Assembly (NCBI RefSeq): GCF_000511175.1
Contig: NZ_KI866530.1
Location: 671,056-735,055, forward strand
Length of the DNA: 64,000 nt
From: Sediminibacterium salmoneum NBRC 103935
GTDB taxonomy: Bacteria > Bacteroidota > Bacteroidia > Chitinophagales > Chitinophagaceae
Direction: 5' to 3'
Shown here: one piece after another, positions 5,978 through 18,599 of the stretch
Numbering within the stretch: position 1 is the first letter of the stretch
How the letters are laid out: the number at the start of each line of letters is the position of its first letter
Program-made: the position numbers and the translations under genes
Notes under the pieces: generated by a model
Databases searched by the model: none
The model's input: only the letters and a program-made list of their open reading frames with translations
What the model was told of the DNA's origin: nothing

Positions 5978-7222
5978 ATGAAAAAATATCTATTGGGAGT
6001 TCTTGGCTTTTTGCCTTTATTATCTGTTAGTGCACAAAAGCAGCCTGAAGTGCCTATTAAACTTCCAGCTGGTTTTTCCAGTCAGATTGTAGCCAGTAAT
6101 TTCGGAAGGGTAAGACATATTGCCGTAAATACCAATGGTGATTTGTACATGAAACTCGATCGCCTGGTAAACGGAAAAGGAATTTATCGTCTCAGAGATA
6201 AAAACAAAGATGGTATTATGGAAGATACCCTTGCCTTTGGTAATTACACGGGAACGGGCATCGGTATTTATAAAGGTTATTTATACGCAACATCAGATGA
6301 AACCGTATATCGCTATCAGCTAGACACCAATCAGGATATCGTGAATCCGGATAAGCCTGAAATAGTAGTGGAAGGTTTGTTAAATCTACGTCAGCATGCA
6401 TCCAAGTCTATCACTTTCGACAAAGCAGGAAATATATATGTTAATATCGGAGCCCCTTCCAATGTTTGTCAGGAAAAAGACCGTCAGAAAGGATCTCCCG
6501 GAATGACGCCTTGTCCCATTCTTGAAACGGCTGGAGGTATCTGGCAGTTCAGTACTGCCAAACTTAATCAGAAATTAGCCGATGGAGTTCGGTATGCTAC
6601 CGGTATGCGGAATGCATTGGGTATTGACTGGAATCATGAAGTGGATGATTTATATGCAACCATTCACGGAAGGGATATGTTGTTTCAGTATTTCCCTGAA
6701 ATGTACGATCAGAAAAAAGGAGCGGAGCTTCCTTCTGAAACCTTTTACCGGGTTAAAAAAGGAGATGATTGCGGCTGGCCTTTTGTTTACTGGGATCATT
6801 TCCAGAATAAGAAAATCTTGAGCCCCGAATATGGTGGCGATGGCAAAAAAGAGGGTGCACCCAATGCTATAAGCCCATTGGTAGGATTTCCGGGGCATAT
6901 GGCACCCAATGCATTGTTGATGTACAATGGCAATCAGTTTCCGGCAAAATACAAACACGGGGCTTTTATTGCCTTTCACGGCAGCTGGAACAGAACTCCG
7001 GAGCCACAGGAAGGATTTTATGTAGTATTTGTGCCCATGAAAAATGGAATGCCAACGGGCAACTGGGAAGTTTTTGCCGATGGTTTCTCTGGCATGAGTC
7101 CGGTTACTAATTTGTCTGCAGCCAAGCATCGCCCAACGGGGTTGGCAATGGGACCCGATGGTGCAATCTATGTATCGGATGATAAAGTCGGTTATGTCTG
7201 GAAAATTTCTTACAAACCATAA
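5978..7222 (+). CDS. Exported PQQ-dependent sugar/sorbosone dehydrogenase-like protein
   Basis: A 414-residue protein with a signal peptide (LLGVLGFLPLLSVSAQ) and a beta-propeller of the soluble glucose/sorbosone dehydrogenase family. Family-like segments include GFSSQIVASNFGRVRHIAV near the start, YATGMRNALGIDWNHEVDDL, GDDCGWPFVYWD, and FIAFHGSWNRTPEPQEGF and GPDGAIYVSDD near the end. Such proteins oxidise aldoses or aldehydes in the periplasm using PQQ and pass electrons to a cytochrome. The adjacent cytochrome c gene five bases downstream supports that reading. The substrate is unknown. Its place between hisC and hisB, on the same strand with short gaps, is unusual because it has no known role in histidine synthesis. 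Confidence 0.88.
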   Translation: MKKYLLGVLGFLPLLSVSAQKQPEVPIKLPAGFSSQIVASNFGRVRHIAVNTNGDLYMKLDRLVNGKGIYRLRDKNKDGIMEDTLAFGNYTGTGIGIYKGYLYATSDETVYRYQLDTNQDIVNPDKPEIVVEGLLNLRQHASKSITFDKAGNIYVNIGAPSNVCQEKDRQKGSPGMTPCPILETAGGIWQFSTAKLNQKLADGVRYATGMRNALGIDWNHEVDDLYATIHGRDMLFQYFPEMYDQKKGAELPSETFYRVKKGDDCGWPFVYWDHFQNKKILSPEYGGDGKKEGAPNAISPLVGFPGHMAPNALLMYNGNQFPAKYKHGAFIAFHGSWNRTPEPQEGFYVVFVPMKNGMPTGNWEVFADGFSGMSPVTNLSAAKHRPTGLAMGPDGAIYVSDDKVGYVWKISYKP

Positions 7223-7227
7223 GTACT

Positions 7228-7683
7228 ATGATGAAACTGATTCTTGTATTATTTTGCTCGATTGCGGCTGATTTTTCAGGCTCTGCACAGACCAAGCCAT
7301 CAGGTAAGCAGTTTAAAGCAAGCACTTCTTCGGCTAAGCAAGGCTTGAGTATATTGCAGATGAGCAATGGCAAAAAAGTATATGATTTATACTGCCAGGC
7401 TTGTCATCAGGCAGATGGCAATGGGGTACCCAGATTGAATCCGCCTTTGACCGGAACGGTATATGTTAACGGAAGCAAAACAAGACTAATTGATATTGTG
7501 CTGAATGGACTTTCTGATCCCATTGAAATAAATGGGGAAGAATACAACAACCCTATGGCAGCCCATGATTTTTTAACCGATCAGCAAATTGCTGATGTGT
7601 TAACGTATGTGCGAAACAGTTTTGGAAATAAATCAGGACCCATTACTGAGCAAGAAGTGAAAAAGCAAAGAGCAAAAAAATAA
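7228..7683 (+). CDS. Exported c-type cytochrome
   Basis: A 151-residue protein with a signal peptide (ending near SGSAQ) and one c-type heme site, CQACH, near residue 55, in the context YDLYCQACHQADGNG. A likely axial methionine lies in NPMAAHDFLTDQQIADVLTYVRNSF, the typical C-terminal helix of class I cytochromes c. It probably takes electrons from the preceding PQQ-type dehydrogenase, because the genes are five bases apart. Its stop codon is one base before the hisB start, so it is locked into the his transcript. Confidence 0.9.
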   Translation: MMKLILVLFCSIAADFSGSAQTKPSGKQFKASTSSAKQGLSILQMSNGKKVYDLYCQACHQADGNGVPRLNPPLTGTVYVNGSKTRLIDIVLNGLSDPIEINGEEYNNPMAAHDFLTDQQIADVLTYVRNSFGNKSGPITEQEVKKQRAKK

Positions 7684-7684
7684 T

Positions 7685-8815
7685 ATGAAAAGGATTTTAT
7701 TTATTGACAGGGATGGAGTGGTTTTGCAGGAGCCTCCTGTTGATTTTCAAATTGATGATATTTATAAAACCAGTTTTGTAAAGGGAGCTTTAACGCAGTT
7801 GTCACGGATTGCTGCTGAATTTGATTTTTATAAAGTGATGGTGACCAATCAGGATGGATTGGGAACCGATTCTTATCCCGAGTCTCAGTTTTATCCTTAC
7901 CACGATCTGATGATCAGAACCCTGGACTCTGTTGGGTTTGTATTTGACGAAATGATTGTAGATAAAACATTCGCCTCTGACAATCAGCCCACCCGTAAAC
8001 CTGGTACTGCTTTGCTCAACCACTTAATAAATAATCCTGCTTATGATCTGGCAAATTCCTTTGTAATAGGTGATCGGTGGAGTGATATTCAGCTGGCAAT
8101 GAATCTGGGAACAAAAGCCATTTATTTAAAATCTGGGTTACATGAATTAAGCGTTGAACAGGAAGAATTATTTAAAGAAGTTATTGTACTGGAGACTGAT
8201 TCCTGGGAAGCGATTTATCAGTTTTTAAAAACCGGGCTCAGACAAGTGCATCATGAAAGAAATACCAATGAAACCCAGATATCTATTGATTTGAATATGG
8301 ATGGAACCGGAAGGGCGAATATTCATACAGGGCTTGGGTTTTTTGATCATATGCTTGATCAGATTGCCAGACATGGTAAGATTGATCTGGCCATTGAAGC
8401 AAAAGGAGACTTACATATTGATGAACACCATACAATTGAAGATACGGGCATTGCCCTGGGGGAAGCTTTTGCAAAAGCACTTTCCGATAAGCGAGGCATG
8501 GAACGATATGGATTTGCCTTGCCAATGGACGAGGCGGATGCGAAAGTGCTGATTGATTTCGGTGGTAGAAACTGGCTGGTTTGGAATGCAGAGTTTAAAA
8601 GAGAAAAAATTGGGGAAATGCCTACAGAAATGTTTTTTCATTTCTTCAAAAGCTTTAGTGATGGTGCCAGGTGTAATTTGAATATTGAATGCAGGGGTGA
8701 TAATGAGCACCATAAAATAGAAGCTATTTTCAAGGCATTTGCCAAAGCTGTGCGTATGGCCGTGAAAAGAGACCCATTAAGTAATCATTTGCCTTCTACC
8801 AAAGGGGTGTTATAA
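7685..8815 (+). CDS. hisB: Bifunctional histidinol-phosphatase / imidazoleglycerol-phosphate dehydratase
   Basis: A 376-residue fusion of the enterobacterial type. The N-terminal HAD phosphatase (about 1-170) starts FIDRDGVVLQEPP with the Asp-x-Asp nucleophile motif and has RKPGTALL and FVIGDRWSDIQLA. The C-terminal dehydratase (about 185-376) has GLGFFDHMLDQIARHG, the metal-binding DEHHTIEDTGIALGEAF and a second metal site in GDNEHHKIEAIFKAF. It catalyses two non-consecutive steps of histidine synthesis. It starts one base after the cytochrome gene and is followed by a new promoter and the trp attenuator. Confidence 0.97.
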   Translation: MKRILFIDRDGVVLQEPPVDFQIDDIYKTSFVKGALTQLSRIAAEFDFYKVMVTNQDGLGTDSYPESQFYPYHDLMIRTLDSVGFVFDEMIVDKTFASDNQPTRKPGTALLNHLINNPAYDLANSFVIGDRWSDIQLAMNLGTKAIYLKSGLHELSVEQEELFKEVIVLETDSWEAIYQFLKTGLRQVHHERNTNETQISIDLNMDGTGRANIHTGLGFFDHMLDQIARHGKIDLAIEAKGDLHIDEHHTIEDTGIALGEAFAKALSDKRGMERYGFALPMDEADAKVLIDFGGRNWLVWNAEFKREKIGEMPTEMFFHFFKSFSDGARCNLNIECRGDNEHHKIEAIFKAFAKAVRMAVKRDPLSNHLPSTKGVL

Positions 8816-8822
8816 TTATTTT

Positions 8823-8852
8823 TTGTGTTTTCCTTCTTAAGTCTCATATTTG
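8823..8852 (+). promoter_or_regulatory. trp operon promoter inside the his operon
   Basis: TTG at 8823-8825, a 19-base spacer and CATATTTG at 8845-8852 match the TTG / TAnnTTTG consensus with one mismatch in the -7 element. The spacing is identical to that of the his promoter. The element ends four bases before the trp leader ATG, so transcription from it would begin essentially at the start codon. Confidence 0.6.
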
Positions 8853-8856
8853 TGTT

Positions 8857-8913
8857 ATGATTTTAGTAAACAAGCATTGGTGGTGGCATACTGACTCTGA
8901 TCGGGGAATGTAG
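8857..8913 (+). CDS. trpL: trp operon leader peptide
   Basis: An 18-codon open frame, MILVNKHWWWHTDSDRGM then TAG, with three consecutive Trp codons at 8878-8886. Tryptophan is rare, so a WWW run directly upstream of a terminator and trpE is strong evidence for a ribosome-mediated trp attenuator. There is no Shine-Dalgarno motif, and the start codon is within about five bases of the predicted -7 element. The Arg-Gly codons 16-17 (CGGGGA, 8902-8907) double as the antiterminator partner. Confidence 0.9.
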   Translation: MILVNKHWWWHTDSDRGM

Positions 8914-8951
8914 TGCTATAGCCAGTACTGAACAATATTGTAAGAGCCCCG
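8902..8951 (+). promoter_or_regulatory. trp antiterminator pairing
   Basis: CGGGG at 8902-8906, inside the leader peptide, pairs with CCCCG at 8947-8951 in the 5' arm of the terminator. The enclosed bases contain a small hairpin, AGTGCT (8912-8917) with AGTACT (8924-8929), and a palindrome ACAATATTGT (8932-8941) that would bring the arms together. A ribosome stalled at the WWW codons leaves 8902 free, and one at the stop codon covers it. Pairing was judged by eye and the helix is short. Confidence 0.6.
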
Positions 8952-8972
8952 GATGTATTTCTGGGGCTTTTT
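8945..8972 (+). terminator. trp attenuator terminator
   Basis: AGCCCCGGA (8945-8953) pairs with TCTGGGGCT (8960-8968) across a six-base loop, with one G-U pair, followed by a T run at 8969-8972. It lies between the trp leader peptide and trpE, about 20 bases before the trpE start. Confidence 0.88.
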
Positions 8973-8989
8973 ATTTTAAGTTATATCAA

Positions 8990-10402
8990 ATGAGTAAGAT
9001 ACAATTGAGTACTACCGGTAAGAAGATGTTGGGAGATATTTACACTCCGGTAGGAATTTATTTAAGACTAAGGGATCGTTTCAGAGATACTATTTTACTG
9101 GAAAGTACCGATCACCATGCGCATGACAATAGTTATTCCTTTATTTGTATTAATGCCATTGGGGGAATAGAAATTAAATCCAAGGATAATATTGAATACA
9201 AACTACCTGGTTCTGATCCGGTAAAAGCTGTTCTGGATCAATCAAAGAATGTGGCAAGCCATCTCTGGGACTATATGGGATCATTTCAGGTATCAGTTCC
9301 TGAAGATGCTGCATATTCATTTGCACAGGGATTATTTGGTTATAACTGTTTTGATGCAATTGATTTTTATGAACCTTCCATTGCCTCAAAAACAGAAACG
9401 CCGTTGATACCCTTGGTGCGTTACAGGCTTTATCAGTATATAATTGCATTTAATCACTTTAAAGACGAGTTGATTATTTGTGAAAATAGAATTCCCGGAA
9501 TCAAGGGAGACCTGCAAATGGTAGAATCGCTGATCCGAATAAAAGATGTGCCAGTATATCCTTTTGCAGTTGCCGGTGAGCAAGCGTCGAATCTTTCAGA
9601 TGAAGCCTATATTTCACTGGTTAAAAAGGGTATTGAGCATTGCATGCGGGGAGACGTTTTTCAGGTTGTATTGAGCAGGCAGTTTAGTCAGGCATTTACC
9701 GGTGATGAATTTAATGTTTACAGAACACTAAGAAGTATTAATCCTTCCCCTTATTTATTCTTTTTTGATTACGGAGATTATAAAATAATGGGTTCCTCTC
9801 CAGAGGCGCAACTGGTAATTAAAAATGGCAAAGCAATTGTTCATCCGATTGCGGGAACATTTAAACGAACAGGGGATGACGCAACCGATCAGCAGGCTGC
9901 GACTGCTTTACTGGCAGATCAGAAGGAAAATGCAGAACATGTGATGCTGGTTGATCTTGCCCGAAACGATTTAAGCCGGGTATGCGAAGACGTTAAAGTT
10001 GCACAGTACCGTCAGGTTCATTATTACAGTCATGTGATTCATTTGGTAAGCGAAGTAGAGGGAAGCATTAAAGGCAAGCAGAACCCATTTGAAATATTTG
10101 CAGCAAGTTTTCCTGCCGGTACATTAAGCGGAGCCCCCAAAATAAAAGCAATAAACATTATTAAAGAACTTGAGCCAACTGAACGAAGTTTTTATGGAGG
10201 CGCTATTGGTTTCGTTGGGTTTGATGGCAGTTTTAATCATGCCATTATGATCAGAACCTTTCTAAGTAAAAACAATCAACTCATTAGTCAGGCAGGAGCG
10301 GGTGTAGTGGCTGCCAGTGTTCCGGAAAGTGAATTACAGGAAGTAAACAATAAGTTAAATGCATTGCACCAGGCAGTTGCTCTTGCATCATCCGTTATTT
10401 AA
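8990..10402 (+). CDS. trpE: Anthranilate synthase component I
   Basis: Converts chorismate to anthranilate with ammonia supplied by TrpG. It is a 470-residue protein of the chorismate-binding family with LVDLARNDLSRV, SFPAGTLSGAPKIKAI and SFYGGAIGFVGF in the C-terminal half. The LLES motif at residues 36-39 is the tryptophan feedback site known from enterobacterial TrpE, so allosteric inhibition by Trp is probably kept. It is the first structural gene after the trp attenuator, and trpG follows by eight bases. Confidence 0.96.
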   Translation: MSKIQLSTTGKKMLGDIYTPVGIYLRLRDRFRDTILLESTDHHAHDNSYSFICINAIGGIEIKSKDNIEYKLPGSDPVKAVLDQSKNVASHLWDYMGSFQVSVPEDAAYSFAQGLFGYNCFDAIDFYEPSIASKTETPLIPLVRYRLYQYIIAFNHFKDELIICENRIPGIKGDLQMVESLIRIKDVPVYPFAVAGEQASNLSDEAYISLVKKGIEHCMRGDVFQVVLSRQFSQAFTGDEFNVYRTLRSINPSPYLFFFDYGDYKIMGSSPEAQLVIKNGKAIVHPIAGTFKRTGDDATDQQAATALLADQKENAEHVMLVDLARNDLSRVCEDVKVAQYRQVHYYSHVIHLVSEVEGSIKGKQNPFEIFAASFPAGTLSGAPKIKAINIIKELEPTERSFYGGAIGFVGFDGSFNHAIMIRTFLSKNNQLISQAGAGVVAASVPESELQEVNNKLNALHQAVALASSVI

Positions 10403-10410
10403 TTGATACT

Positions 10411-10992
10411 ATGAAAATTCTTGTTTTTGATAATTATGACTCATTCACCTACAATCTGGTGCATCTGATTGCTAAGATTACGGGTGATTATCCTGACGTA
10501 TGCAGAAATGATCAGATTGAACTGGAAAAAGTAAATGATTATGATAAAATTGTTTTGTCTCCCGGCCCGGGTATTCCAGCCGAAGCTGGTTTATTGAAGC
10601 CCCTGATTCAAGAATACGCTTCCAGTAAATGTATATTAGGTGTCTGTCTGGGACATCAGGCCATTGGAGAAGTTTTTGGAGCAACCTTAATTAATCTTCC
10701 CAAGGTATATCATGGAATTGCTACGCCGGTATTTCCTCTGCGGTTATCTAATGGAGAATACTCTCCCGTTTACAAAGGACTGGGCGATACGGTTGAAGTA
10801 GGCCGCTATCATAGCTGGGCCGTTTCCGCAGATCGGTTACCGGCAGAACTTATTGTTACTGCAAAAGATGAAAATGGGTTGATCATGGGACTCATGCACA
10901 GTCAGTTTGATATTGAGGGAGTTCAGTTTCACCCGGAAAGCATTCTAACCCCACAGGGAGAAACTATTATGAAAAACTGGTTAAACAAGTAA
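10411..10992 (+). CDS. trpG: Anthranilate synthase glutamine amidotransferase component
   Basis: Class I glutamine amidotransferase of 193 residues that feeds ammonia to TrpE. The oxyanion segment SPGPGIPAEAG, the catalytic Cys79 in GVCLGHQAIGEVFG and the His-Glu pair in VQFHPESILTPQG are all present. Its place between trpE and trpD points to TrpG; whether it also serves PabB cannot be told from sequence. It ends one base before trpD. Confidence 0.96.
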   Translation: MKILVFDNYDSFTYNLVHLIAKITGDYPDVCRNDQIELEKVNDYDKIVLSPGPGIPAEAGLLKPLIQEYASSKCILGVCLGHQAIGEVFGATLINLPKVYHGIATPVFPLRLSNGEYSPVYKGLGDTVEVGRYHSWAVSADRLPAELIVTAKDENGLIMGLMHSQFDIEGVQFHPESILTPQGETIMKNWLNK

Positions 10993-10993
10993 G

Positions 10994-11986
10994 ATGAAAA
11001 AAATATTACAATACCTTTTTGAGTATAAATCGTTGAGCAGAGAGAAGGCTTTTGATGTATTGGTTAATATGGCAAACGGTCAATACAACGATTCGGAAAT
11101 TACCGCTTTTATAACCGTTTATTTAATGCGAAGCATTACTATAGACGAGTTAAGTGGCTTCAGAGATGCATTGTTACATTTATGTGTTAAGACCGATCTG
11201 GGTACAAACGATTTGGTTGACATTGTTGGTACGGGAGGAGATGGAAAAAACTCTTTCAATATTTCAACTCTTGCTTGTTTTGTTGTTGCAGGTGCCGGAC
11301 AAAAAGTGGCTAAGCATGGGAATTATGGAGCTTCTACTATTAGTGGAGCATCTAACGTGATGGAGGCTTTGGGATACCGCTTTAAGCAAACTGCCGATTT
11401 ATTGAAAAGAGAGATTGATGAAGCTGGAATTTGTTTTATGCACGCTCCACTTTTTCATCCTGCCTTAAAAGCAGTTGGCCCAATTCGAAAAAAGCTTGGG
11501 GTCAGAACTTTTTTCAATATGCTGGGCCCCATGGTAAATCCAGCCAATCCGGATTATCAGCTGGTAGGGGTGTACAATCTGGAAATGGCCCGCATCTACA
11601 ACTATTTACTGCAGCCAACAGGCAAGTCTTTTACTATTATCCATAGCCTGGATGGTTATGATGAAATATCCTTAACCAGCGATACTAAAGTTATTACCAA
11701 ACAAGGAGAAGCGGTGTATTCTCCTATTGACCTGGGTAAAAAAATTGTACTTCCCGAAGCTATTTACGGGGGAAATACGGTTGAAGAATCGGCTGCCATT
11801 TTCCTGCGTGTTTTAAAAGGTGAAGGAAGCTGGTCTCAGAATGCTGTGGTGTTGGCCAATGCAGCCATGGCATTGAACAGCACAGGTAAGTTCGCCAATT
11901 ATGATGCTGCGTATCAGGCAGCTGTTTATAGTCTGGAATCAGGAGCAGCTTATAAAAGTTTTACTAACCTGATTCAAATGCAATAG
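10994..11986 (+). CDS. trpD: Anthranilate phosphoribosyltransferase
   Basis: Transfers phosphoribose from PRPP to anthranilate. It has 330 residues, a normal length. The PRPP-binding glycine-rich segment is GTGGDGKNSFNIST near residue 78-91, followed by KHGNYGASTISGASNVMEALG and RTFFNMLGPMVNP. It is not fused to TrpG, unlike the enterobacterial enzyme. It starts one base after trpG and ends 16 bases before trpC. Confidence 0.97.
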   Translation: MKKILQYLFEYKSLSREKAFDVLVNMANGQYNDSEITAFITVYLMRSITIDELSGFRDALLHLCVKTDLGTNDLVDIVGTGGDGKNSFNISTLACFVVAGAGQKVAKHGNYGASTISGASNVMEALGYRFKQTADLLKREIDEAGICFMHAPLFHPALKAVGPIRKKLGVRTFFNMLGPMVNPANPDYQLVGVYNLEMARIYNYLLQPTGKSFTIIHSLDGYDEISLTSDTKVITKQGEAVYSPIDLGKKIVLPEAIYGGNTVEESAAIFLRVLKGEGSWSQNAVVLANAAMALNSTGKFANYDAAYQAAVYSLESGAAYKSFTNLIQMQ

Positions 11987-12002
11987 TCAAATACATTTAT
12001 TT

Positions 12003-12800
12003 ATGACCATTCTTGATACAATTGTTGAACAAAAAATTCGTGAAGTTGCACAGAGAAAGGCAGAGTCCCCAATTAGTATATTGGAGCAGTCTGTTTATTT
12101 TTCCAGACCGTGTATTTCGCTCAGGGACACTTTACAGGATAATAATAAAACGGGCATAATAGCTGAATATAAAAGAAAGTCGCCCAGCAAGGGAATCATC
12201 AATGGAATTTCCACTGTAGCAGAAGTAACGAATGCCTATGCTGAATATGGGGCAGCTGCTGTTTCTGTTTTAACAGATGAAACATTTTTTGGAGGACATC
12301 TGAACGATCTGGCAAATGCGGTGCAATTGCCTATTCCTGTTTTGCGAAAGGATTTTATGGTAGATGAGTATCAGTTATATGAAGCAAAAGCCCATGGCGC
12401 ATCTGTTATCCTGTTAATAGCAGCCTGCTTAAGCCCCAAAGATATTCAGCGTATGGCCAGGTTGGCACATCAGTTAGGATTGGAAGTCTTGCTAGAAATA
12501 CATGGAGAGGATGAATTAGGTCATATATGTCCGGAAGTTGATTTTGTAGGCGTTAATAACAGAAACTTGAAAAGTTTTGAAGTTAGTCTGGAACATTCCC
12601 TTGGGTTGATTAACAAGATTCCAAAGGAAATGCCTGCTATTGCTGAAAGTGGTATAGATCATCCGGATACAATTGTAACTTTACAGAGTGCCGGGTTTTC
12701 CGGATTTTTAATAGGGGAACGTTTCATGCGTGAAACCAATCCCGGAATTGCTTTTGCCAATTTTGTTATAACCTTAAAAGAAAAACAAAATGCGGGCTAA
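12003..12800 (+). CDS. trpC: Indole-3-glycerol phosphate synthase
   Basis: A 265-residue TIM-barrel enzyme that closes the indole ring. Characteristic segments are GIIAEYKRKSPSKG near residue 49, VLTDETFFGGHLNDL, PVLRKDFMVDEYQ, FVGVNNRNLKSFEV and AESGIDHPDTI. It is a stand-alone TrpC, not fused to TrpF. Its 3' end overlaps the trpF start by 11 bases, which suggests coupled translation. Confidence 0.97.
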   Translation: MTILDTIVEQKIREVAQRKAESPISILEQSVYFSRPCISLRDTLQDNNKTGIIAEYKRKSPSKGIINGISTVAEVTNAYAEYGAAAVSVLTDETFFGGHLNDLANAVQLPIPVLRKDFMVDEYQLYEAKAHGASVILLIAACLSPKDIQRMARLAHQLGLEVLLEIHGEDELGHICPEVDFVGVNNRNLKSFEVSLEHSLGLINKIPKEMPAIAESGIDHPDTIVTLQSAGFSGFLIGERFMRETNPGIAFANFVITLKEKQNAG

Positions 12801-13431
12801 AGTCTGTGGATTGAACAGTATTCAGCAAATGATGCAACTGGATGAAATGGGCGTAGAATTCGCCGGATTCATTTTTTATTCCAAATCGCCCAGGTATGTT
12901 TTAAAAACCTGTTCCAGATTGGATTTAAAAAAGGCAAAAGGCACAACTATCAATAAAGTAGGGGTATTTGTTAATGAAGAACCAGAGCAATTATTAACGC
13001 TGGTTGATGAATGCGGTTTGTATCTGGCACAGTTACATGGTGATGAAACTCCCAGATATTGCGAAAAAATTGCTGACTACATTTCTGTTATTAAAGCATT
13101 CAGACTCAGAGATGATGATGATGTTTTATGGAAAATCAAGGATTACCAGGATATAGTAGATATGTTTTTATTTGATACTGCGGGTGCAGAATATGGTGGA
13201 ACAGGTAAAAGGTTCAACTGGGATATTTTATTTTCTCTGAATATAAATAAACCCTTCTTTTTAAGCGGGGGTATTGGGCCTGAAGATATACAGGCATTAC
13301 AATCATTTAAATTGGATCCTGTTGCGAAAGACCTGTTTGCCATTGACGTGAATAGTAAATTTGAAATTAGTCCGGGAATAAAAAATATGGAACTGGTAAA
13401 ACCATTTATAAAGCAATTGAAACAATTATGA
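12790..13431 (+). CDS. trpF: Phosphoribosylanthranilate isomerase
   Basis: A 213-residue TIM barrel that performs the Amadori rearrangement before TrpC. It starts RAKVCGLNSIQQM with the catalytic cysteine of the KxCG motif, then EFAGFIFYSKSPRYV, VGVFVNEEPEQL, LAQLHGDETPRYC, FDTAGAEYGGTGKRFNW and PFFLSGGIGPEDI. It overlaps trpC by 11 bases and the next gene by 4 bases (ATGA). Confidence 0.95.
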   Translation: MRAKVCGLNSIQQMMQLDEMGVEFAGFIFYSKSPRYVLKTCSRLDLKKAKGTTINKVGVFVNEEPEQLLTLVDECGLYLAQLHGDETPRYCEKIADYISVIKAFRLRDDDDVLWKIKDYQDIVDMFLFDTAGAEYGGTGKRFNWDILFSLNINKPFFLSGGIGPEDIQALQSFKLDPVAKDLFAIDVNSKFEISPGIKNMELVKPFIKQLKQL

Positions 13432-13940
13432 GAAAAGGGATTCTGATAGGTTTTCTGGGGCTTTTTTTGTACGGTAATCTTTCTGCACAGCAATTAAGTA
13501 ATATATTAATTAATGTGAGTGGAAAGGCTCAATACAAAGTTAGCTCAGGTAATACCCTAATATACCTGGATGATCAGGGTAAGATTCTTTCTGTTGAAAC
13601 AGATGCTTCAGGAGAAGTGTTGTACAATAAGAATTTTCAGCCGCAACAAGCAGGAAGTCTTGGTATTCAGTTTAATTATGAAGGTTGGTTAAGTCAAATA
13701 GGAAACTTGTTTATTCAGTATGATCATACAGGACGAATAGATAAAATCGGCGATCTGGTATTCAGGTATAATTATCAAAATATAATATCATCTGTGGGTA
13801 ATATTTCCATTTTGTATAATGCCAATAGAACCATTGACCAGATTGGGGTGTATAAGATATATTATAATTATAGCGGTAAAATATCCAGAATTGACCCCAG
13901 TAAAGGTCTAATTGCTTTACAATTAAATTTTTCAAAATGA
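13428..13940 (+). CDS. Exported protein with five 16-residue beta repeats, embedded in the trp operon
   Basis: A 170-residue protein that I do not recognise. It has a signal peptide (residues 1-20, ending NLSAQ), then a region rich in Tyr, Asn and Ile. Residues 78-157 divide into five consecutive 16-residue units: LGIQFNYEGWLSQIGN, LFIQYDHTGRIDKIGD, LVFRYNYQNIISSVGN, ISILYNANRTIDQIGV and YKIYYNYSGKISRIDP. These alternate aromatic beta strands with turns and loosely recall YD-type or solenoid beta repeats. The start overlaps the trpF stop (ATGA, 13428-13431) and the stop overlaps the trpB start (ATGA, 13937-13940). It is therefore translated within the trp operon although it should be exported. 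Function is unknown, and a role in tryptophan synthesis would be surprising. Confidence 0.82.
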   Translation: MRKGILIGFLGLFLYGNLSAQQLSNILINVSGKAQYKVSSGNTLIYLDDQGKILSVETDASGEVLYNKNFQPQQAGSLGIQFNYEGWLSQIGNLFIQYDHTGRIDKIGDLVFRYNYQNIISSVGNISILYNANRTIDQIGVYKIYYNYSGKISRIDPSKGLIALQLNFSK

Positions 13941-15142
13941 GTAGTGTGAGGAACGATTATCAGTCGCCCGATTTGCAGGGATATTACGGAGAGTTTGGTG
14001 GGGCATATATTCCGGAAATGTTGCAGCGAAATGTGATGGAACTCAGGGAGAAGTACCTGCAGATTATGCAGGAACCCGATTTCCAGGCGGAGTTTGCTCA
14101 TCTGCTAAAGGATTATGTGGGCAGGCCAACCCCTTTATTTAAAGCAGAAAGACTGAGTGAACAATACCAGACTCAGATATACTTAAAACGAGAAGATCTT
14201 TGTCATACCGGAGCACATAAAATCAATAATACCATTGGTCAGATCTTGCTGGCAATACGTTTAGGTAAAACCAGAATTATTGCGGAGACGGGTGCCGGTC
14301 AGCATGGAGTGGCTACAGCAACGGTTTGCGCTTTAAAAGGTCTTGAGTGTATTGTTTATATGGGAGAAAAAGACATTGAACGTCAGGCACCCAATGTAGC
14401 AAGAATGAAAATGCTGGGAGCTAAAGTGGTTCCGGCCACCAGCGGCAGTAAAACCCTTAAAGACGCTACCAATGAAGCAATCAGAGATTGGATTAATCAT
14501 CCTGAGAATACCCATTATATTATAGGAAGTGTAGTAGGGCCACATCCTTATCCTGATATGGTAGCCCGTTTTCAAAGTGTAATCAGTAAAGAAATGAGAG
14601 CACAATTATTAGAGCAAACCGGAACAGATTTACCAACTCATGTGATTGCCTGTGTAGGAGGAGGTAGTAATGCTGCAGGGGCTTTTTATCATTTTCTAAA
14701 TGAGCCTTCGGTAATACTGGTTGCAGTGGAAGCTGCTGGAAAAGGCGTTTCTAGTGGTATGAGTGCTGCTACCACACAGTTGGGTTCTGTAGGAATTTTA
14801 CATGGAAGTAAAAGTCTGCTGATGCAAACTGAAGATGGTCAGGTAGTTGAGCCGCATAGTATTTCAGCAGGTTTGGATTATCCTGGAATCGGGCCTATGC
14901 ATGCACATTTATTCCAATCCGGCAGAGGTGTATTCCTGAGTGCAACGGATGAAGAAGCGCTGGATGCAGCATTTCATGTAAGTAAAACAGAAGGAATTAT
15001 ACCGGCATTGGAAACATCCCATGCATTTTCAGTACTGGGACAACTGAATTTGAAGCCCTCCGATCGTGTAGTAATTTGTTTAAGTGGAAGAGGGGATAAG
15101 GATCTGGCGACCTATATGAATAGCGGAAAAATGAAATTATAA
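13937..15142 (+). CDS. trpB: Tryptophan synthase beta chain
   Basis: PLP-dependent beta-replacement of serine with indole. It has 401 residues of the TrpB1 type, beginning GYYGEFGGAYIPEML. The PLP lysine is in HTGAHKINNTIGQ, the channel segment in AETGAGQHGVATATVCAL, the phosphate loop in CVGGGSNAAGAF, and CLSGRGDKDL lies at the end. The start codon overlaps the preceding exported-protein gene by four bases, and trpA follows by nine bases. Confidence 0.97.
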   Translation: MSSVRNDYQSPDLQGYYGEFGGAYIPEMLQRNVMELREKYLQIMQEPDFQAEFAHLLKDYVGRPTPLFKAERLSEQYQTQIYLKREDLCHTGAHKINNTIGQILLAIRLGKTRIIAETGAGQHGVATATVCALKGLECIVYMGEKDIERQAPNVARMKMLGAKVVPATSGSKTLKDATNEAIRDWINHPENTHYIIGSVVGPHPYPDMVARFQSVISKEMRAQLLEQTGTDLPTHVIACVGGGSNAAGAFYHFLNEPSVILVAVEAAGKGVSSGMSAATTQLGSVGILHGSKSLLMQTEDGQVVEPHSISAGLDYPGIGPMHAHLFQSGRGVFLSATDEEALDAAFHVSKTEGIIPALETSHAFSVLGQLNLKPSDRVVICLSGRGDKDLATYMNSGKMKL

Positions 15143-15151
15143 AATTGGATA

Positions 15152-15937
15152 ATGAGCAGACTAGTAAATATATTTCAAAAGAAAAATCAACCTGTGCTGA
15201 ATGTTTATTTTACTGCAGGGTATCCCTCTCTGGATAGTACATTGCCTGTAATGGAAGCGCTGGCTAAAAATGGGGTAGAGATTATAGAGTTGGGCATGCC
15301 CTACAGTGATCCCCTGGCGGATGGCCCCACCATACAGGAAAGCAGCACGAAAGCCATTGCCAATGGTATGACTATAGCAACTCTATTTAGTCAAATTCGT
15401 CATTGCAGAGAAAATTCGTATTTACAACATACCGGAATTGTTTTAATGGGATATATGAATCCGATTCTTCAGTATGGTTTTGAAAGGTTTTGTGCGGAAG
15501 CGGCCGAGGCAGGTGTAGACGGCCTCATTTTGCCTGATTTGCCTGCATTTGAATTTGAAAATGCTTACGGAGCAATCATTAAAAAGTACGGATTGGATTT
15601 TATTTTCCTGGTAACACCTGAAACAACAGAAGAAAGAGTTAGAGAACTGGATAATTTAAGTTCGGGATTTTTGTATGCAGTAAGTGCTTCCGCAACCACA
15701 GGAGGGAATACGGATTTTGAAAAAGTGAATGCATATCTAAAAAAACTGGCGGCGTATCAATTAAAGAATCCTGTGATGGTGGGCTTTGGAATTAAAGACC
15801 AGCAAAGTGTTGAAGCGGTAACACAATATACGCAAGGAGCAATCATAGGTTCTGCGTATATTAAAGTATTGAGCACAGCTACTGATATTGAGTCAGCAAC
15901 CCGCCAGTTTATAGGACAGATCAGACCTAAATTGTAA
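15152..15937 (+). CDS. trpA: Tryptophan synthase alpha chain
   Basis: A 261-residue TIM barrel that cleaves indole-3-glycerol phosphate to indole. The catalytic Glu and Asp lie in EIIELGMPYSDPLADGPTIQ, then VLMGYMNPILQYG, DGLILPDLPAFEF and FLYAVSASATTGG are visible. It is the last trp gene. The hisH start codon (GTG) lies three bases after its stop, so there is no room for a separate promoter before hisH. Confidence 0.97.
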   Translation: MSRLVNIFQKKNQPVLNVYFTAGYPSLDSTLPVMEALAKNGVEIIELGMPYSDPLADGPTIQESSTKAIANGMTIATLFSQIRHCRENSYLQHTGIVLMGYMNPILQYGFERFCAEAAEAGVDGLILPDLPAFEFENAYGAIIKKYGLDFIFLVTPETTEERVRELDNLSSGFLYAVSASATTGGNTDFEKVNAYLKKLAAYQLKNPVMVGFGIKDQQSVEAVTQYTQGAIIGSAYIKVLSTATDIESATRQFIGQIRPKL

Positions 15938-15940
15938 AAT

Positions 15941-16531
15941 GTGAAAACAGTAATTATAAAATACAATGCCGGAAATATTCAATCAGTGCTTTATGCGCTC
16001 GAAAGGATTGGGCATACCGCAGATGTTACAGATGACCACGAACAGATAAGACAGGCCGACAAAGTTATTTTTCCCGGTGTAGGTGAAGCAAGTACAGCCA
16101 TGAATTACCTGAAGAGCAGAAAGCTGGATCAAATAATAGTTGATTTAAAACAACCTGTTCTTGGTATCTGTTTGGGCATGCAACTGATGTGTAAATACAG
16201 TGAAGAAAACAACACAGATTGCCTGGGCATATTTGATGAAAAAGTAAGCAGATTTTCCCCGGTTAACGGGGTCAATAAGATTCCTCAGATTGGCTGGAAT
16301 ACAATTGAACATTTAAAGAGCCCATTATTCAATGGCATTAAAGAATCATCCTACTGCTATTATGTTCATAGCTTTTATGCTTCGTTAGGAGAGCATACAA
16401 TCGCAACCACCCATTACGGAATCGGCTATAGTGCTGCATTGCATCGGAATAATTTTTACGGGGTACAGTTTCACCCTGAGAAAAGTGCAGAAACCGGAGA
16501 GCAGATTTTAAAAAATTTTATTGCTTTATAA
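15941..16531 (+). CDS. hisH: Imidazole glycerol phosphate synthase glutaminase subunit
   Basis: Class I amidotransferase of 196 residues that supplies ammonia to HisF. It starts with GTG at 15941; the nearby ATG at 15939 is out of frame and closes at once. The nucleophile is in GICLGMQLM near residue 80, and the His-Glu pair in YGVQFHPEKSAETGEQILKNF. It begins three bases after trpA, so hisHAFIE is an extension of the trp transcript, and hisA starts one base after its stop. Confidence 0.95.
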   Translation: MKTVIIKYNAGNIQSVLYALERIGHTADVTDDHEQIRQADKVIFPGVGEASTAMNYLKSRKLDQIIVDLKQPVLGICLGMQLMCKYSEENNTDCLGIFDEKVSRFSPVNGVNKIPQIGWNTIEHLKSPLFNGIKESSYCYYVHSFYASLGEHTIATTHYGIGYSAALHRNNFYGVQFHPEKSAETGEQILKNFIAL

Positions 16532-16532
16532 T

Positions 16533-17240
16533 ATGGAAATCATACCCGCTATTGATATTATTGATGGAAAATGTGTCAGGCTAACCGAAGGTGATTATGC
16601 GCAAAAAACCATTTACAATGCCAACCCGCTGGAAGTGGCCCAATCTTTTGCTGATGCTGGAATTAAAAGATTGCATCTGGTAGACCTGGATGGTGCCAAA
16701 GCTGGAAAAGTTACCAATTGGAAAGTATTGGAAACCATTGCATCCAATACCTCTTTAATTATTGATTTTGGCGGAGGGATTAAAACGGAAGCCGATCTGA
16801 AACTGGTATACGAATCCGGGGCCAGTCTGGCTACTATCGGTAGTCTGGCAGTGAAAGACCCTGATTTATTCGAATCCTGGATTCAGCAATATGGGGCGGA
16901 TAAATTTTTATTGGGTGCTGATGTAAAGGGAGAGTTTATTGCTATCGGAGGCTGGCTACAGGTATCCGATCAAACAATTATCCAATTTATTGAGAAGTAT
17001 ATCCGGAAAGGAATTACTCAGTTGTTTTGTACCGATATTAGTAAGGATGGTAGACTGGAGGGGCCCTCTCTTGAATTGTATCAACAGATTACTCAAGCAT
17101 TTCCCGATTTACATTTTATTGCCAGCGGAGGGGTAAGCTCAATGGAAGATATACATGCATTAAGAGAAATTGGCTGTAAAGGAGTTATTGTAGGGAAAGC
17201 CATTTATGAAGGAAGAATAAAAATAGAAGAATTGTGTTAA
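16533..17240 (+). CDS. hisA: ProFAR isomerase
   Basis: A 235-residue (beta-alpha)8 barrel of the HisA/HisF family from the ATG at 16533. An upstream in-frame TTG at 16521 would overlap hisH and is less likely. The general acid and base are expected in [15 protein letters not shown] near residue 8 and in [11 protein letters not shown] near residue 130. [10 protein letters not shown] and [11 protein letters not shown] are the two phosphate loops. A dedicated trpF exists upstream, so a dual-function PriA role is not needed. It overlaps hisF by seven bases. Confidence 0.95.
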
Positions 17241-17992
17241 CAAAACGAATAATACCCTGTCTGGATATCAAAGACGGCAGAACAGTTAAAGGTGTGAATT
17301 TTGAGCAGATTCGTGATGCAGGTGATCCGGTTGAACTAGCATCCATCTATGCAAAAGAAGGAGCTGATGAACTCGTTTTTCTTGATATTACTGCAACGAA
17401 TGAGAAAAGAAAAACATTGAGTGAGCTCGTAAACAAAATTGCGCATCAGATTAATATTCCTTTCACTGTTGGAGGGGGAATTAATTCTGTGGAAGATGTA
17501 CAGGTCTTATTGAAGAATGGAGCCGATAAAATATCAGTAAATACGGCTGCATTTAAAAAACCTGATTTAATTAATGAACTTGCCCTTGAATTTGGCAGTC
17601 AGTGTGTAGTATTGGCCATTGATACTAAACAGGAAGCCGACGGTAAATGGTATGTGTACCTGAACGGGGGTAAGGTAAAAACAGATACATTGTGTTTTGA
17701 TTGGGCCAGGGAAGCAGTTGATAGGGGGGTAGGAGAAATATTACTGACTTCCATGAACAATGATGGCACTAAAAAAGGATTTGCGTTGGATATTACTAAA
17801 CAATTAGCCGGTTCTTTACCTGTACCCATTATTGCATCCGGGGGTGCCGGCAGTAAGGAAGATTTTGCTGATGTATTTCAGCAGGCCCAGGCAGATGCAG
17901 CGCTGGCAGCAAGTATTTTCCATTTTAAAGAAATCGCTATACCTGAATTGAAAAAATATTTGTCTGAACAGCAGATTCCTGTTCGTTTATAA
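17234..17992 (+). CDS. hisF: Imidazole glycerol phosphate synthase cyclase subunit
   Basis: A 252-residue barrel that, with HisH, makes imidazole glycerol phosphate and AICAR. The start is GTG at 17234 inside the end of hisA, reading [20 protein letters not shown] with the family Asp at residue 11. [31 protein letters not shown] and [12 protein letters not shown] are typical. hisIE follows by ten bases. Confidence 0.96.
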
Positions 17993-18002
17993 ACAACCGA
18001 TT

Positions 18003-18599
18003 ATGAAAATTGATTTTGAAAAATACACGGACGGGCTGGTGCCAGCCGTTGTTCAGGATTACATGACGCATAAAGTATTAATGTTGGGCTTTATGAATGC
18101 TGAAGCAGTTGATAAAACAATGGAGTTGCAAAAAGTGACTTTTTTCAGCAGGTCAAAACAACGTCTCTGGACAAAGGGAGAAGAGAGCGGTCATTTTCTT
18201 CATTTGAAATCCATAGCAGTGGATTGCGACAATGACAGCCTTTTAATACAGGCAAATCCTGAAGGCCCAACCTGTCATACAGGAGCAGATACCTGCTGGA
18301 ATGAAAAAAATCATGCGGATCATTTTTTAACCTATCTGGAACAAATTATTGAACTCAGAAAGAATGGGAACCCGGATGAATCCTATGTAGCCAAAATGTT
18401 TGCCAAAGGAATCAATAAAATTGCCCAGAAAGTAGGGGAGGAGGCAGTTGAAATGGTGATTGAGGCAAAAGATGATAATGCTGATTTATTTTTGAATGAG
18501 TCTGCAGACTTACTGTTTCATTATTTGCTTTTGCTTAACGCTAAAGGGCATAACTTAGCAGAAGTCTTACAAATTCTACAATCAAGGCACGCTAAATAA
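18003..18599 (+). CDS. hisIE: Phosphoribosyl-AMP cyclohydrolase / phosphoribosyl-ATP pyrophosphatase fusion
   Basis: A 198-residue bifunctional enzyme for the second and third steps of histidine synthesis. The cyclohydrolase half (about 1-105) has VLMLGFMNAEAVDKT, TFFSRSKQRLWTKGEESGHFL, the metal-binding DCDNDSLL and CHTGADTCW. The pyrophosphatase half (about 115-198) has ESYVAKMFAKGINKIAQKVGEEAVE and ADLLFHYLLLL. It completes the his pathway in this window. A thioredoxin-fold gene begins three bases after its stop. Confidence 0.97.
   Translation: MKIDFEKYTDGLVPAVVQDYMTHKVLMLGFMNAEAVDKTMELQKVTFFSRSKQRLWTKGEESGHFLHLKSIAVDCDNDSLLIQANPEGPTCHTGADTCWNEKNHADHFLTYLEQIIELRKNGNPDESYVAKMFAKGINKIAQKVGEEAVEMVIEAKDDNADLFLNESADLLFHYLLLLNAKGHNLAEVLQILQSRHAK

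Follow-up and report, generated by a model that had tools for sequence, protein, structure and literature searches.

The window, by which we mean the whole 64,000-nt stretch analysed here, belongs to a 3.25 Mb genome consisting of one contig and contains a complete trp operon nested within a his operon (hisGDC..B - trpEGDCFBA - hisHAFIE). On the + strand, read 5' to 3', hisG, hisD, hisC, a heme-binding-like gene, a cytochrome-c-like gene and hisB precede a trp leader and trpE, which is followed by trpG, trpD, trpC, trpF, a 170-aa gene, trpB, trpA, hisH, hisA, hisF and hisIE. Among named records, the TrpE encoded here is nearest to those of Sediminibacterium MAGs (77%) and next to those of other Chitinophagaceae. 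No match to TrpR or to TRAP was found in the whole genome (95.88% complete). The genes around the trp leader and the outer his leader are placed as follows.

2558–2588, + strand: his promoter candidate, consisting of TTTG, 19 nt and TAGTTTTG, 7 nt before the his leader ATG (sequence; consensus as given in PMC7366714)
2596–2646, + strand: his leader ORF MKQNLHLHHHHMQPKG, outer attenuator before hisG (sequence, comparison)
2681–2705, + strand: his leader terminator, AGCTTACC / GGTAGGCT and a T run (sequence)
7685–8815, + strand: hisB, directly upstream of the trp leader (NF003937)
8990–10402, + strand: trpE, the first regulated gene (TIGR00564 as best match, below the curated cut-off at 404 of 518 bits)
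10411–15937, + strand: trpG, trpD, trpC, trpF, the 170-aa gene without an NCBIfam match, trpB and trpA
15941–18599, + strand: hisH, hisA, hisF and hisIE, downstream of the trp genes

The 170-aa gene occupies 13428–13940, between trpF and trpB. The region between hisC and hisB (5978–7683) holds the PVC-type heme-binding-like and cytochrome-c-like genes, whose matches lie below the curated cut-offs.

Between hisB and trpE, we resolve the following elements of a putative trp attenuator.

8822–8852, + strand: internal promoter candidate, consisting of TTTG (8822–8825), 19 nt and CATATTTG (8845–8852) (sequence; positional peaks in relatives)
8857–8913, + strand: trp leader ORF MILVNKHWWWHTDSDRGM, with ATG at 8857 and stop codon TAG at 8911–8913
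8878–8886, + strand: three Trp codons of the trp leader (sequence)
8887–8889, + strand: His codon directly 3' of the Trp run (sequence, comparison with relatives)
8878–8924, + strand: helix 1:2, a pause/protector hairpin in which the Trp codons pair with the ORF end and bases after the stop (fold of -16.1 kcal/mol, covariation)
8902–8906, + strand: segment 2, CGGGG, the 5' arm of the antiterminator (fold, comparison)
8942–8978, + strand: intrinsic terminator (helix 3:4) with T-rich tail (stem 8942–8971, conservation, covariation)
8947–8951, + strand: segment 3, CCCCG, common to antiterminator and terminator (fold, covariation)

A preliminary description of this DNA had reported a Trp leader ORF and a terminator inside the his operon. 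Both features are confirmed between hisB and trpE, and the position inside the his operon holds, with hisB ending at 8815; the gene immediately downstream is trpE, not a his gene. Among 1350 ATG-initiated mini-ORFs (up to 40 codons, both strands of the 64-kb window), this leader alone bears WWW. It also has a second His codon just 5' of the Trp run (8875–8877). The terminator stem, given earlier as 9 bp, comprises 12 pairs by our count, with a loop of 6 and a T-rich tail. It is the one terminator-like site in 8000–10000, and because shuffles of these 2 kb give a mean of 1.4 such sites, a single one is no excess and the case for this terminator rests on its conservation. As had been proposed, CGGGG in codons 16–17 of the leader (the Arg-Gly codons) is complementary to CCCCG in the 5' arm of the terminator.

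This conservation can be judged from 278 trpE loci, which we reduced to 240 distinct loci by identity of the first 400 TrpE residues, with the window copy (L083) among them. A leader with WW precedes trpE at 103/111 loci of a first set (window copies and duplicates included). In the distinct set, where the search asks for WW within 500 nt and a leader ending <400 nt before trpE, one is found at 219/240 loci (window included), which supports the earlier proposal of a Trp attenuator with a WWW leader peptide. A terminator follows the leader in 218/219 cases, compared to 10/219 once the same stretches are shuffled (one shuffle; here and for the promoter motif, single-base composition alone is preserved). 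The distance from stop codon to stem has a median of 31 nt and a middle half of 29–34. We refer to loci as linked when his genes are found next to the trp genes and on their strand, and as unlinked when none were found, the calls being made by tblastn with the window proteins at E 1e-10; trpA was not found at 14 of the 63 unlinked loci.

The 21/240 loci without a leader by this rule are excluded from every association count. They comprise three with a leader farther upstream (L060, L186, L198), eight with a single WH, four with WLWQ and six others: L080 has no sequence before trpE, whose match begins at base 2, L124 has only 151 nt, L264 reads NWCC, and L139, L237 and L267 are without a clear leader. 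The WLWQ leaders, in which the Trp codons are split, lie upstream of trpE in distant genomes (L261, L263, L271, L276). Loss of the Trp codons in relatives, which the preliminary description had named as evidence against an attenuator, is absent from the close relatives of the window, while one distant clade of eight is down to one Trp codon. A covariance model of the leader recovers one clear copy in the window genome (72 bits, compared to at most 33.1 elsewhere) and matches in 20/148 genomes across the phylum, mostly weak; it contributes little beyond the trpE-based survey.

In the window, helix 1:2 folds at -16.1 kcal/mol and the full leader, terminator included, at -35.7 kcal/mol. Without the Trp codons, CGGGG pairs with CCCCG (-14.3 kcal/mol), giving the antiterminator, or helix 2:3. 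The three helices were compared in an alignment (A1) of 45 diverse leaders, thinned at 82% similarity from 135 eligible ones and consisting of WWWH leaders only. The fraction of cells paired is 82.2% for 1:2, 76.5% for 2:3 and 97.7% for 3:4, compared to at most 47.8%, 60.0% and 58.6% in the respective slid controls, and slides by 1–3 columns never equal any helix on cells paired or on covariation score. For each helix, the covariation score is reached by 0/500 shuffles, which ignore relatedness. Pairs in which both sides change stand out for 3:4 only (reached by 18/500 shuffles, compared to 64/500 for 1:2 and 296/500 for 2:3), and for 1:2 and 2:3 certain slid structures equal or surpass this count. 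Helices 1:2 and 2:3 were tested as named structures because RNAalifold recovered just the terminator and a small hairpin from the full alignment of diverse leaders.

The antiterminator pairing is moderately specific. In a swap test, an arm with its own partner gives -11.7, compared to -9.8 with those of other genomes and -8.3 with dissimilar partners, and an arm taken from another genome does equally well in 32% of draws (16% if dissimilar). The best antiterminator is weak in several distant genomes (-4 to -7 kcal/mol). We also observe short leaders ending in WWWQS.. or WWQS.. (L033, L039, L047, L055–L057, L059, L060, L211), none known to be his-linked, in which the antiterminator arm in the RG codons is gone; in L033, L055 and L059, the stretch that pairs best is located 3' of the stop codon. 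Codon usage bears on helix 1:2. In the 88 leaders reading WWWHTN(S/L), CAT is used in 82, ACA in 83 and AAC in 87, a conservation beyond the amino acids themselves that indicates constraint on synonymous sites, as 1:2 pairing would need. The comparison supports the full scheme of a 1:2 pause/protector, a 2:3 antiterminator and a 3:4 terminator. Structure prediction and covariation, the check suggested at the outset, thus back the two helices that the preliminary description had recognized, and comparative evidence favours its placement of the antiterminator arm at the end of the leader ORF. What it had missed is the conserved His codon after WWW and helix 1:2, with which the leader would have the full trp/his-type design.

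Ahead of the leader, CATATTTG matches 5 of 6 positions of TAnnTTTG and ends 4 nt before the leader ATG. TTTG / TAnnTTTG is the Bacteroidota housekeeping promoter consensus as given in PMC7366714. TTTG shows sharp positional peaks 7 nt (61 cases) and 35 nt (51 cases) ahead of the leader ATG across 188 non-redundant upstream regions, and the combined motif TTG-N17-22-[TC]AnnTTTG, ending 3–13 nt before the ATG, occurs in 116/188 regions, including 67/102 his-linked ones; 50 shuffles average 0.46 and never exceed 2. Where found, it usually ends 4–10 nt ahead of the start codon of the leader. Linked leaders carry the exact TAnnTTTG box less often (29/118) than unlinked ones (40/71), and the internal promoter may thus be weaker in the former. 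If transcription begins a few bases past TTTG, these RNAs would be leaderless or nearly so. Such a state is rare genome-wide, with 5.5% reported as leaderless in Flavobacterium psychrophilum (PMC9723704) and about 3.7% of 5' UTRs reported as <10 nt in B. thetaiotaomicron (PMC7366714). An E. coli-type promoter match at 8789–8816 was set aside, since shuffles give a mean of 5.5 such matches compared to 4 in the region and, according to PMC7366714, the promoters of Bacteroidota are different.

His is the residue after the Trp run in 166/219 leaders, and its distribution follows the surrounding genes. It stands directly after the run in 114/119 linked leaders versus 23/63 unlinked ones (14/49 under a stricter unlinked rule), with 37/219 leaders of unknown linkage, 29 of them with His, left out. 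At loci fetched after the idea arose, with TrpE sequences not among the earlier ones, the counts are 61/65 linked versus 18/50 unlinked, and for those later loci with TrpE <57% identical, they are 7/7 versus 8/31. A test of dependent evolution on a FastTree TrpE tree (182 rows) yields an LRT of 38.4 for the His codon depending on linkage (2 df, p 4.5e-9), while the full-dependence model yields 41.2 (4 df, p 2.4e-8). The LRTs at other leader features are 13.3 for T, 10.5 for N, 12.0 for S, 7.7 for the RG/GV end, 3.0 for three Trps and 0.5 for N at -2; the neighbours T, N and S likewise associate with linkage, less strongly than H. The comparison gives a well-supported association between the His codon and his linkage, with the codon often lost where trp is unlinked. 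Because 23/63 unlinked leaders have it, the codon is not diagnostic of linkage.

His codons elsewhere near the run follow a similar pattern. Immediately 5' of the run, His occurs in 29/119 linked versus 1/63 unlinked leaders (LRT 14.6), and within positions -6..+2, a range picked after the exceptions were known, any His occurs in 119/119 versus 28/63, which gives His the lowest p among 19 residues. For the part upstream of the run only, the difference is modest (37/119 versus 8/63, p 0.007), and depletion of Thr is stronger. Linked leaders carry one to three His codons near the Trp codons. Those without His at +1 are L062 (WWGH), L210 (WWWQH) and L222, L226 and L231 (HWWWQ), with hisH alone found downstream in the last three.

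Eight sister pairs sit on well-supported branches, of which on average 4 differ in the expected way, 0 in the opposite way and 4 not at all (median p 0.125). In one genus outside Chitinophagaceae (f16/g172), two linked members read WWWH and one unlinked member reads WWWS. In the single-Trp clade (100% support on the TrpE tree), WWWH has shrunk to WH with His kept in 8/8, four of which are known to be his-linked. These leaders (L069, L072, L076, L077, L078, L079, L081, L212) read NNGWH and similar, and the terminator is retained. Linked genomes with distant TrpE also retain His, mostly outside the TNS context.

The codon at this site can change without loss of the helix. Helix 1:2 still forms (-12 to -20 kcal/mol) with CAA, CAG, CTG, AAC, CGT, CTT or TAC replacing the His codon, in leaders with Gln, Leu, Asn, Arg or Tyr at that site and none with known his linkage, and the helix thus does not require His. 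With a Pro codon there (L013), the helix is weaker (-10.2). Folding with these seven other codons led us to reject RNA pairing as a full explanation for the His codon. In 107 linked leaders, the distance from the +1 codon to segment 2 has a median of 13 nt, which is about the reach of a ribosome with the +1 codon in its A site.

Our main reading, to which we assign a probability of roughly 0.7, is that the locus carries a ribosome-mediated two-input (Trp or His) attenuator that heads the trp operon lying within the his operon, with the switch probably answering to shortage of either amino acid. RNA polymerase, starting at the internal promoter or arriving from hisG, would transcribe the leader RNA. 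When Trp and His are plentiful, the ribosome would reach the stop codon and cover segment 2, and helix 3:4 would terminate transcription; in an untranslated leader, helix 1:2 would take segment 2, with termination as the predicted outcome again. When charged tRNA-Trp is low, the ribosome would stall on the Trp codons in segment 1 and leave segment 2 free to pair with segment 3, such that transcription would continue into trpEGDCFBA and on to hisHAFIE. His starvation would likewise free segment 2 by a stall at the His codon after the Trp run, and hisHAFIE would then be reachable when His alone is short. The second control codon, His at +1, indeed sits where such a stall is predicted to free segment 2.

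The gene order suggests what a second input would achieve. Barring a promoter inside the trp block, polymerase from either promoter must pass the attenuator in order to reach hisHAFIE, and a switch for Trp only would therefore shut four his genes when Trp is plentiful and His is short. A His codon placed where a stall leaves segment 2 free would remove this conflict for hisHAFIE. Comparison among genomes supports the leader with its terminator and three helices, the promoter motif and the association between His codon and linkage; from these we infer the stalling, the antitermination, the response to His and the start of transcription. A precedent is E. coli trpL, in which Arg follows the Trp codons and a response to Arg starvation has been reported. 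The response to a single His codon may be shallow, and attenuator sensitivity has been argued to fall with the fraction of regulatory codons (PMC1183508). A broader proposition is that, in Bacteroidota, the trp attenuators of nested operons work as two-input gates, with the His codon gained or kept due to the downstream his genes, and that ribosomes read these leaders from RNAs that are leaderless or nearly so, in a phylum with little Shine-Dalgarno use; taken as a whole, we would put this slightly above even odds.

A Trp-only attenuator, with the His codon kept for RNA reasons (it lies inside helix 1:2) or by common descent, would account for the constrained synonymous sites (CAT, ACA and AAC in 82, 83 and 87 of the 88 WWWHTN(S/L) leaders) and for the lesser association of T, N and S with linkage. 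It is difficult to reconcile, however, with helix 1:2 folding around seven other codons at the His site in leaders without known his linkage, with an LRT at H about three times that of its neighbours, or with the His before the run, which lies upstream of the modelled helix and still separates linked (29/119) from unlinked (1/63) leaders. The 8 single-Trp leaders that keep His, and the linked genomes with distant TrpE that keep it mostly without the TNS context, speak in the same direction, and we consider a Trp-only switch unlikely. The conserved synonymous codons in TN, which point to RNA, weigh against another reading, in which the peptide product works in trans or through nascent-chain arrest, with selection on its residues. 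The conservation of WWWHTNS within the family would agree with such a peptide, and a trans-acting trp leader peptide is known in Sinorhizobium (PMC7298713), but residues outside Trp and His vary widely, and the terminator that attenuation needs is present in 218/219 cases; we judge this reading very improbable. Least credible of all is a hairpin that merely terminates the upstream his genes next to a fortuitous ORF. The location, after hisB and ahead of what is probably a trp unit of its own, is in favour of such a terminator, yet the Trp ORF occurs at 219/240 loci, including genomes where no his gene was found upstream, the stop-to-stem distance has a median of 31 nt and a middle half of 29–34, and the leader has the alternative helices 1:2, 2:3 and 3:4.

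When compared to known systems, the two-input attenuator that we favour is most like the enterobacterial trp attenuator (trpL; RF00513), with which it shares tandem Trp codons, a short leader ORF, helices 1:2, 2:3 and 3:4 and a terminator before trpE. The window leader differs in having a Bacteroidota promoter motif a few bases before the ATG, in being nested in a his operon and in having, next to the Trp codons, His and not the Arg of E. coli trpL. RF00513 Trp_leader is the best-scoring sub-threshold Rfam match (20.7 bits, E 0.039, over the whole model length), below its gathering score of 41 bits; at the gathering threshold, a search of the 64-kb window returns tRNA only. The ilvGMEDA and thr attenuators have one leader with control codons for more than one amino acid, and there the sensed amino acids are made by the regulated pathway or related to it, whereas the second codon of the window leader would serve a different pathway, encoded farther along the operon. 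The logic of hisL-type attenuators, which have runs of His codons, is common to the nested trp leader, and the outer his leader of this operon is of that kind; linked trp leaders, in contrast, have one to three His codons and no run. Attenuation in bacteria has reportedly been surveyed by Lopatovskaya et al. (2010).

The interruption of a his operon by trp genes has been described in two genomes, of Thermoflavifilum and Filimonas (PMC8305728); the section concerned does not discuss regulation of the introgressed trp genes, and the main text contains no instance of 'leader' and one of 'attenuation', on enteric bacteria. In Flavobacterium psychrophilum, which belongs to the same phylum, 'strong clues' of leader-peptide attenuation before amino acid operons have been noted (PMC9723704); the passages concerned name no Trp or His leader, and 'tryptophan' and 'histidine' are absent from the main text. 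Within the open-licence full-text literature, where most subscription papers are not included, our searches found no account of His serving as a control codon in a trp leader, or of a nested his-trp operon with an attenuator. The locus appears to have a classical attenuator in a new context, and the association with his linkage suggests a second input. The usual teaching is that an attenuator senses the product of the genes under its control; here, a trp attenuator seems to have acquired a second amino acid owing to the genes of another pathway behind it. If true, this would be a natural experiment in which operon fusion has rewired a regulator codon by codon in several lineages of a class, and the codon content of a leader peptide would follow operon architecture. 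Bacteroidota have unusual promoters and rarely use Shine-Dalgarno sequences, and the system opens a neglected question to testing, namely whether their transcription-translation coupling is close enough for ribosome-position switches, and for such switches starting from nearly leaderless RNAs.

The outer attenuator before hisG (2558–2705) has a leader containing LHLHHHH and its own terminator, and its promoter candidate is a full TTTG-N19-TAnnTTTG match. In a permissive Rfam search, nothing convincing was found for the his leader, the best-scoring model being Phe_leader (17.6 bits versus 55). A his leader is found in 36/38 hisG upstream regions. None of these 36 has Trp codons within the His run, which would be the reverse form of cross-control, and this fits if the trp genes have their own promoter. 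W occurs in two of the 36, as the last residue of one leader and in a probably over-extended N-terminal start of the other.
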